DNA of 64,000 bases from an uncultured Alphaproteobacteria bacterium (GTDB taxonomy: Bacteria > Pseudomonadota > Alphaproteobacteria > Rs-D84), in contig CALXLS010000001.1 of NCBI GenBank assembly GCA_944389265.1, forward strand, positions 187,825 to 251,824, given 5' to 3'. Shown here piece by piece: positions 14,077 through 14,845 of this stretch (positions are counted from its first letter, which is position 1; each line of letters opens with the position of its first letter). The notes beneath the pieces were generated by a model. That model worked only from the letters and a program-made list of their open reading frames with translations, ran no database searches and was not told the DNA's origin. The position numbers and the translations under genes are program-made.

Positions 14077-14148
14077 GTAACTAATCCTTTTATAATTTCC
14101 GTTGCATTATAACAACCTTTTCCTTGCACCGCAATTTTTATATTGTTA

Positions 14149-14165
14149 TGATAACTTTGTTATCA
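14149..14165. promoter_or_regulatory. Palindrome at the start of the C4-like leader
   Basis: TGATAAC-TTT-GTTATCA is a perfect 7-bp inverted repeat. It lies just upstream of a GATAAT -10-like box (14174-14179), so it may be an operator controlling the leader RNA and the following gene. Confidence 0.4.
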
Positions 14166-14180
14166 GGTATTCTGATAATG

Positions 14181-14341
14181 GGGTTTAGCGACCCGACTTA
14201 GACGTATGCAACACAACGTTATGTGATGCGATTTTTTGTATCTCCAACCTCTGGTTGGAGGGTGTGGGAATATATTGAATACCACCGCTATTTCTAAGAT
14301 AGTCGCTAACCTCCAACCACCTGATTTTCTGGTGGTTTTTT
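14181..14341 (+). ncRNA. C4-like antisense leader RNA upstream of the Cys-rich gene
   Basis: TTAGCGAC (14185-14192) pairs with GTCGCTAA (14302-14309) to close a compact RNA. Inside are a CACA/TGTG hairpin and a perfect hairpin CTCCAACC (14242-14249)/GGTTGGAG (14253-14260). The element ends with a terminator, ACCACC (14316-14321) with GGTGGT (14331-14336) and T6. TCCAACCTC (14243-14251) is complementary over 9 nt to GAGGTTGGA (14363-14371), which contains the Shine-Dalgarno of the gene at 14372; AACCTCC (14308-14314) offers a second 7-nt match. This is the layout of the C4 antisense RNA of phages P1/P7, cut from the same transcript that it silences. Match to the Rfam C4 family is from memory of its layout, not from a search. 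Confidence 0.6.
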
Positions 14342-14371
14342 CATTCATCATGAACGAAAAAGGAGGTTGGA

Positions 14372-14845
14372 ATGAAAAAACTTTTTACTGTACTTGTGCT
14401 TTATAATATTATGTACATCCAATATGCACCTGCTGCACCAAACTGTTGCCCACCATGTTCACTTGAAATAGGCGCAACCAACAATTATGACAGTAGTTGC
14501 ACAAATTCAAACATTTGTAATTGCCGTTCAACATCTACTACAAACTCTACCTCGCATGTTATAACTACGACAAACAAATTTTTCTCGACCAAATGTATAG
14601 GGAATACTGCTTATGCATCTTGCACTTCTTCGCTACCAACATACTCTTGCGAACAAGGATATTATGGTAGACCAACAAGCAGTTTATCAGGTTGTACACG
14701 TTGTCCTTCTTCTGGTGGAGTTTACGGGACGACCGCATCTTCTGGCGCCACCGATATAACAGAATGTTATATTCCTTCTGGAACCAGCGGTTCGGATTCA
14801 TCTGGCTCTTTTACTTATACGGGCAACTGTTATTATACAAATTAA
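14372..14845 (+). CDS. Secreted cysteine-rich protein with GYYG/CP and CYY C-terminal module
   Basis: 157 residues. Signal peptide MKKLFTVLVLYNIMYIQY then about 16 cysteines in a Ser/Thr-rich background: CCPPC, CNC, CEQGYYGRPTSSLSGCTRCP and a last block ending SGSFTYTGNCYYTN. The C-terminal layout (CxxGYYG, CxxCP, gap, CY, then YTxxCYY) is shared with the protein at 53.3-54.1 kb. Disulfide-rich exported or surface protein; function unknown. An AGGAGGTTGG ribosome site sits 5 nt before the ATG, and it is the apparent target of the upstream C4-like RNA, so expression is probably conditional. Followed by a strong terminator. Confidence 0.75.
   Translation: MKKLFTVLVLYNIMYIQYAPAAPNCCPPCSLEIGATNNYDSSCTNSNICNCRSTSTTNSTSHVITTTNKFFSTKCIGNTAYASCTSSLPTYSCEQGYYGRPTSSLSGCTRCPSSGGVYGTTASSGATDITECYIPSGTSGSDSSGSFTYTGNCYYTN

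Follow-up and report, generated by a model that had tools for sequence, protein, structure and literature searches.

How does the structured RNA leader that stands before a gene for a Cys-rich protein in an uncultured alphaproteobacterium act on that gene, and is it of phage kind? A preliminary description of the locus read it as a C4-like antisense RNA of phage-type origin that can mask the ribosome site of the gene behind it. In phages P1 and P7, C4 is an RNA that lies upstream of a gene and is complementary around that gene's ribosome site, according to excerpts of one paper (PMC12197685). Here, we analyse the leader in a 64,000-nt stretch of DNA (the window, to which all positions without a prefix refer; its features are on the + strand), its other copies in the same genome and its relatives in further genomes, and weigh the ways in which it might work.

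The leader in the window

The leader is preceded by promoter-like -35 (TTGCAC, 14124-14129) and -10 (TATGAT, 14147-14152) boxes, and transcription would start near 14159. Hairpin P0 (TTATCAG/CTGATAA with the loop GTATT, 14160-14178) probably forms the extreme 5' end of the leader RNA. Covariance model R1, built from 8 aligned copies, including the window copy itself, and imperfect in its P2 columns, matches at 14166-14339 (C1:201990-202163) with 126 bits and an E value of 2.1e-29. Sequence and fold give a closing stem P1 with TTAGCGAC (14185-14192) as its 5' arm and the partner GTCGCTAA (14302-14309) as its 3' arm, and a GGGG at 14180-14183 adds one base to the 5' arm in this copy. The fold also contains helix P2 (CTTAGA, 14197-14202, with TCTAAG, 14293-14298), hairpin P4 (14242-14260), in which CTCCAACC (14242-14249) pairs with GGTTGGAG (14253-14260) according to sequence, fold and pair counts, and P5 (14264-14285), whose loop GAATATATTGAATA (14268-14281) is conserved among the aligned copies. 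A possible helix P6 (CTAT/ATAG, 14288-14302) would cross P2. Downstream of P1 lies an intrinsic terminator (AACCACC, 14315-14321, with GGTGGTT, 14331-14337, and a T run, to 14341), followed by the ribosome site GGAGGTTGG (14362-14370) and the start codon ATG (14372-14374) of a 157-aa Cys-rich protein (14372-14845), which has a signal-peptide-like start by a hydropathy rule and matches no Pfam family at E up to 0.01. The gap between terminator and start codon leaves no room for another promoter. The predicted fold of the leader (14180-14345) has an energy of -59.8 kcal/mol (z -5.2), and 0 of 200 shuffles were as good.

Several stretches of the leader have more than one possible partner. The preliminary description stressed a 9-mer, TCCAACCTC (14243-14251), which lies inside P4 and is complementary to GAGGTTGGA (14363-14371), and named a second match of 7 nt, which AACCTCC (14308-14314) with GGAGGTT (14362-14368) would fit; both are present in the window sequence, as are the closing stem, the hairpin and the terminator of that account. 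The P1 3' arm together with CCTCC (14302-14314) forms a candidate anti-ribosome-site segment, in which CTAACCTCC (14306-14314) faces GGAGGTTGG, one G-U pair included. The P4 3' strand, TGGTTGGAGG (14252-14261), has an antiterminator-like alternative partner in CCTCCAACCA (14310-14319), to which it is complementary at 10 of 10 positions, and CTCCAACC is found twice in the window leader, once in P4 and once in the flank of the terminator.

Copies, fold and neighbouring genes of the RNA family

Searching its own genome (0.93 Mb, 7 contigs) with the window DNA gave 10 matches at E up to 10, self included, with 6 at E < 1e-5; R1 found 15 copies at E < 1e-13 and a weak sixteenth at E 5e-5, and the 64-kb window holds only one of these. 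At E up to 0.1, R1 matched 47 of 59 surveyed genomes, this one included: 35 of 35 in the genus, part of the order's other families and 0 of 6 other members of the class, with copy numbers among relatives down to one. In two larger surveys, only 15 candidates were scored per genome and matches were accepted at E up to 1e-6. Of 190 genomes sampled from the order, 170 had a match (9 genomes of the same genus had none); of 289 sampled from the class, 11 did, and 8 of these lie outside the order. Counted in full at E up to 1e-3, three relatives have 46 (G019), 47 (G010) and 34 (G032) matches, and the best 30 of each were taken as loci. Records found by the loop pattern bear, among the matches listed, titles of Candidatus Enterousia and of uncultured alphaproteobacteria of gut, rumen and termite. 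Excerpts of a paper on Enterousia place it in the order Rs-D84 and give its genomes as mostly < 1 Mb (PMC12306168); the order that carries the family is probably Rs-D84, Candidatus Enterousia included. Neither the leader nor, at gathering score, any of 15 further loci has a match in Rfam, and among the open-licence papers listed by literature searches none is on this RNA family. We consider it near certain that the leader is a member of a new structured RNA family.

Three R1 collections gave 89, 111 and 102 matches, from which 282 copies were left after identical RNAs had been removed. Of these, 255 had a P1 arm that could be recognised ahead of a CTCC-like site, and 219 were followed within 80 nt by a start codon that has an SD-like site, the other 63 being followed by none; 206 copies had both arm and start codon (205 at one row per gene and genome), and 73 with unique arms and sites were left for class-restricted and control tests. 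The parts follow one another, 5' to 3', as -10-like box, P0, P1 5' arm, P2, a variable hairpin P3, P4, P5, a short putative P6, P1 3' arm, CCTCCAACC, terminator and start codon, the last lying 20-36 nt past the model end (10th-90th percentile; 218 distinct genes within 80 nt). In 189 of 280 copies, the hexamer most like a -10 box begins 19 or 20 nt ahead of the model start; given this fixed distance, transcription probably starts at the base of P0. The P5 loop of the family is GAATATATTGAATAA; because the loop-pattern set was chosen by this loop, frequencies were taken from model-found sets only, where GAATA..[GA]AATA occurs in 12/16, 28/30, 14/31 and 19/30 copies of four genomes and much of the remainder is variable.

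The fold is supported by covariation. In an alignment of 87 distinct rows, which was fitted to the structure, 93.8% of cells are paired and both sides have changed in 30 of 38 pairs (0 of 500 shuffles as high), with values for P1 of 99.3% of cells and 7 of 7 pairs, and with 94.3% of cells paired in the terminator helix. Alignment-free comparison of own with swapped strands, in 110 random copies of the 255, gave z -29.5 for P2, -21.4 for P0 and -3.3 for P6, the last value leaving a P2/P6 pseudoknot suggestive only. A structured leader before an exported-looking Cys-rich gene, as first described, is upheld.

A simple, home-made hydropathy rule marks 144 of the 218 distinct proteins encoded downstream as exported-looking, against a background of 16 among the 51 ORFs of the window that have at least 100 aa; the share is 10/12, 26/27, 19/24 and 23/29 in four model-surveyed genomes and 66/126 in the remainder. 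The other downstream proteins are mostly small, many of them HTH-like by eye, and six targets in the window's own genome have no Pfam match. In G019, an ENISGAMY-type start is found in 16 of the 27 leader-linked genes found, with 9 different P1 arms shared among the 16, and the 30 copies of that genome have 12 P1 arms (anchored on CTCC) and one terminator flank. The preliminary description had proposed to look for the same leader before paralogous genes in related genomes, and it was found there. A paralogous exported-looking family of G019 (L182-L210) has its own leader before each gene. Five tandem leaders, each with a TATAAT-like box, stand at L151:3939-5056 (minus strand) before one small ORF, which adjoins mreB (by eye); these near-identical copies differ in their P1 stems, which yet stay paired. 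In two genomes, a leader has been retained next to one and the same gene, which is mreB by eye. One copy in the window's own genome (L018:1501-1666, minus strand) has no start codon found downstream and is a possible stand-alone RNA.

The ribosome-site match and the second partner of P4

Duplex energies of arm and ribosome site were compared between own and swapped partners inside each genome, with row and column means removed. Arms favour their own sites in the window's genome (n=12, z -5.1, 0/20,000 permutations), in G010 (n=22, z -5.2), in G032 (n=28, z -4.8) and in mixed genomes (n=116, z -6.1), and weakly in G019 (n=27, z -2.0, p 0.022). A 14-nt window slid along the leader (89 pairs, four genomes) gave a strong signal only along the stretch from the P1 3' arm up to and including CTCC (z -5.1 to -6.2); a few places elsewhere, P4 included, reached -2 to -2.7. 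The 9-nt TCCAACCTC site is rejected as the regulatory pairing, with P4 windows at most at z -2.6 versus -6.2 for the P1 3' arm. The complementarity to the ribosome site that was first proposed is supported and, across copies, is specific to the own gene. A trivial SD/anti-SD match is likewise rejected as the whole cause, since the tuning remains when copies are restricted to the CTCCAACC class (N=41, z -5.25) and when the arm is cut down to the 12 nt that precede CTCC (N=38, z -3.1; G019 contributes nothing to this upper-arm test), whereas the controls do not score (reversed arm z -1.1, P1 5' arm 0.0). In these comparisons, the P1 3' arm is tuned to its own gene's ribosome site. The ribosome site also resembles the P1 5' arm, as in L012 (GAGGATTCAAGA versus GGAGATCAAGA) and L023 (GAGGCTTGATA versus GGGAGTTTGATA).

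Ranked among 560 ribosome sites of the window's own genome, the proper site comes 2nd to 11th for 8 of 12 copies and 25th, 44th, 72nd and 187th for the remaining four, the 187th belonging to L017 with its misplaced arm; the specificity is therefore real, yet not exclusive. In predicted folds of full transcripts, the arm takes up 5 nt or more of the ribosome-site region in 66 of 206 copies (8 of 12 for the window's genome) and P1 remains closed in 166 of 206, the P1-closed and unconstrained folds differing by 0.6 kcal/mol on average. The site of the window copy is predicted to be masked when the transcript begins 14 nt before the model start and unmasked when it begins at 14159. Because predicted folds mask inconsistently, we infer the mask from the conserved matching and not from one predicted fold.

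At the terminator, the P4 3' strand is complementary to the 5' flank at 8 of 8 positions in 230 of 255 copies, a count favoured by the choice of that strand as the best match to the flank. With G-U pairs counted, all 8 positions of the P4 hairpin itself pair in 164 of 255. Among the 57 copies with a flank other than CTCCAACC, the P4 3' strand follows it at 8/8 in 35 and at least 7/8 in 50, and members outside the order (14 loci) have the same match between P4 strand and flank in other letters. A match kept in this way is what an antiterminator would leave. Forcing the antiterminator costs a median of 7.9 kcal/mol before the terminator is complete and about 13 after, so that termination should be the default and a trigger would be needed. 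At the level of sequence, the leader has the two marks of an attenuator, an intrinsic terminator and a conserved competing pairing. Neither the antiterminator-like repeat nor the multi-copy family had been noticed in the preliminary description.

A candidate two-step switch and its rivals

We read the leader as a cis-acting two-step off switch, an attenuator with a ribosome-site mask as a second, translational lock, and put the probability of this reading at roughly 0.64. It is based on the fold and its covariation, the order of the parts, the tuning of the P1 arm and the kept second partner of P4. Most transcripts would end at the intrinsic terminator, short of the gene; in those that read through, the ribosome site of this same gene would probably be covered by the P1 3' arm. 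To reach the ON state, the P4 3' strand would leave its hairpin and pair with CCUCCAACC, a pairing that would take away the anti-ribosome-site segment and, with it, the terminator's 5' half; transcription could then continue, with the ribosome site free. The switch might be triggered by another RNA or, at the conserved GAAUA..GAAUAA loop, by a small molecule or a protein. In transcription attenuators and riboswitch expression platforms, a terminator or a ribosome site has a competing partner, and the leader resembles these in having a competing strand for its terminator and a competing partner for its ribosome site; it differs in joining both, in a P1 arm particular to each copy and in its number, up to 47 copies in a ~1 Mb genome.

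The main rival, which we think unlikely, is C4-like action in trans, by which a terminated RNA of ~180 nt would accumulate and bind, as a separate molecule, the ribosome site on the mRNA of the downstream gene and perhaps those of paralogues. It would agree with the order of the parts, which is that given for P1/P7 in the preliminary description, with the complementarity to the downstream ribosome site, with P1 arms shared among paralogues and with tandem copies that have no gene of their own (23 same-strand neighbours < 150 nt apart among the 282 copies, and five leaders in a row in L151), but the tuning within a genome is to the own downstream gene, the arm is closed in P1 in the predicted fold of the terminated leader, and the Rfam C4 model RF01695 has no match. 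This model is absent from the leader's 7 matches at E up to 10 and gave no match at gathering score in 15 other loci; its best score in the window's own genome was 15.4 bits, elsewhere than at the leader and against a cut-off of 45, a comparison without a positive control since none of 14 control genomes rose above the cut-off either. On these results, membership of the leader in C4 is unsupported and was set aside. What it shares with C4 is a place upstream of a gene and complementarity around the ribosome site of that gene. Unlike C4, which has 77 nt and an antirepressor as its target, the leader is about 165-180 nt long, has seven helices or more and a terminator of its own, is chromosomal with many copies per genome, and stands before exported-looking and small HTH-like proteins; judged by rule and by eye, these are the proteins seen downstream, and no antirepressor (ant) operon was seen there.

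The phage-type origin that had been proposed fares no better. The window copy had no match in 50,697 phage records and the L012 copy none in plasmid records, so that, with one copy tried against each, a phage or plasmid origin is not supported; many of the copies are chromosomal. The loop pattern occurs in 3 stretches of viral contigs, on three contigs. One copy in a contig of the viral collection (L179:12028-12192) has neighbours that resemble phage tail and lysis genes by eye, and is followed by a 316-aa ORF with an export-like start. Taken as a whole, the earlier reading is partly supported.

Less probable again is a leader that binds a protein or, as a riboswitch, a metabolite and works through the terminator only, with the ribosome-site match as a by-product. 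The conserved loop, the alternative partner kept at the terminator and the presence of a terminator in every model match (which follows from the construction of R1) suit such a leader, but the own-gene tuning falls precisely on the arm and persists when the class is restricted. It is very improbable that the leader is a selfish or mobile RNA module, or belongs as the RNA part to a type III toxin-antitoxin locus, and has no regulatory role for its neighbours: the high and variable copy number, the tandem arrays and the L179 copy among phage-tail-like genes (by eye) are in its favour, and the narrow spacing to start codons, the gene-specific tuning, the diverse neighbours with signal-peptide-like starts and the copy kept beside mreB (by eye) in two genomes are against it. 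Type III toxin-antitoxin loci are laid out as promoter, structured RNA, terminator and gene, an order that the leader shares; with one long unit in place of short tandem repeats, and with neighbours that are diverse and exported-looking or HTH-like, this candidate was set aside on layout and neighbours.

A wider reading, tentative and on balance doubtful, is that of genome-wide RNA switches: each gene of a large exported-protein repertoire would have its own promoter-leader-terminator unit, with the closing stem as a partial address to its ribosome site, and gut alphaproteobacteria with reduced genomes would choose their surface and secreted proteins by RNA switching and not by DNA rearrangement. 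With up to 47 places in ~1 Mb genomes across the order, much of that repertoire would come under one kind of RNA control, in which a transcription stop and a ribosome-site mask are joined in one leader with letters matched to the gene. Its hundreds of natural compensatory variants would offer a series for testing how RNA switches evolve specificity. This uncultured group is not known to have a cultured model, and the leader family would give a first regulatory handle on these animal-gut bacteria. In divergent members outside the order (L269-L282), the genes behind the leader resemble those for lipoproteins, outer-membrane or pilin-like proteins by eye, and the P5 loop has an extra stem between AAATAA and GAATA.
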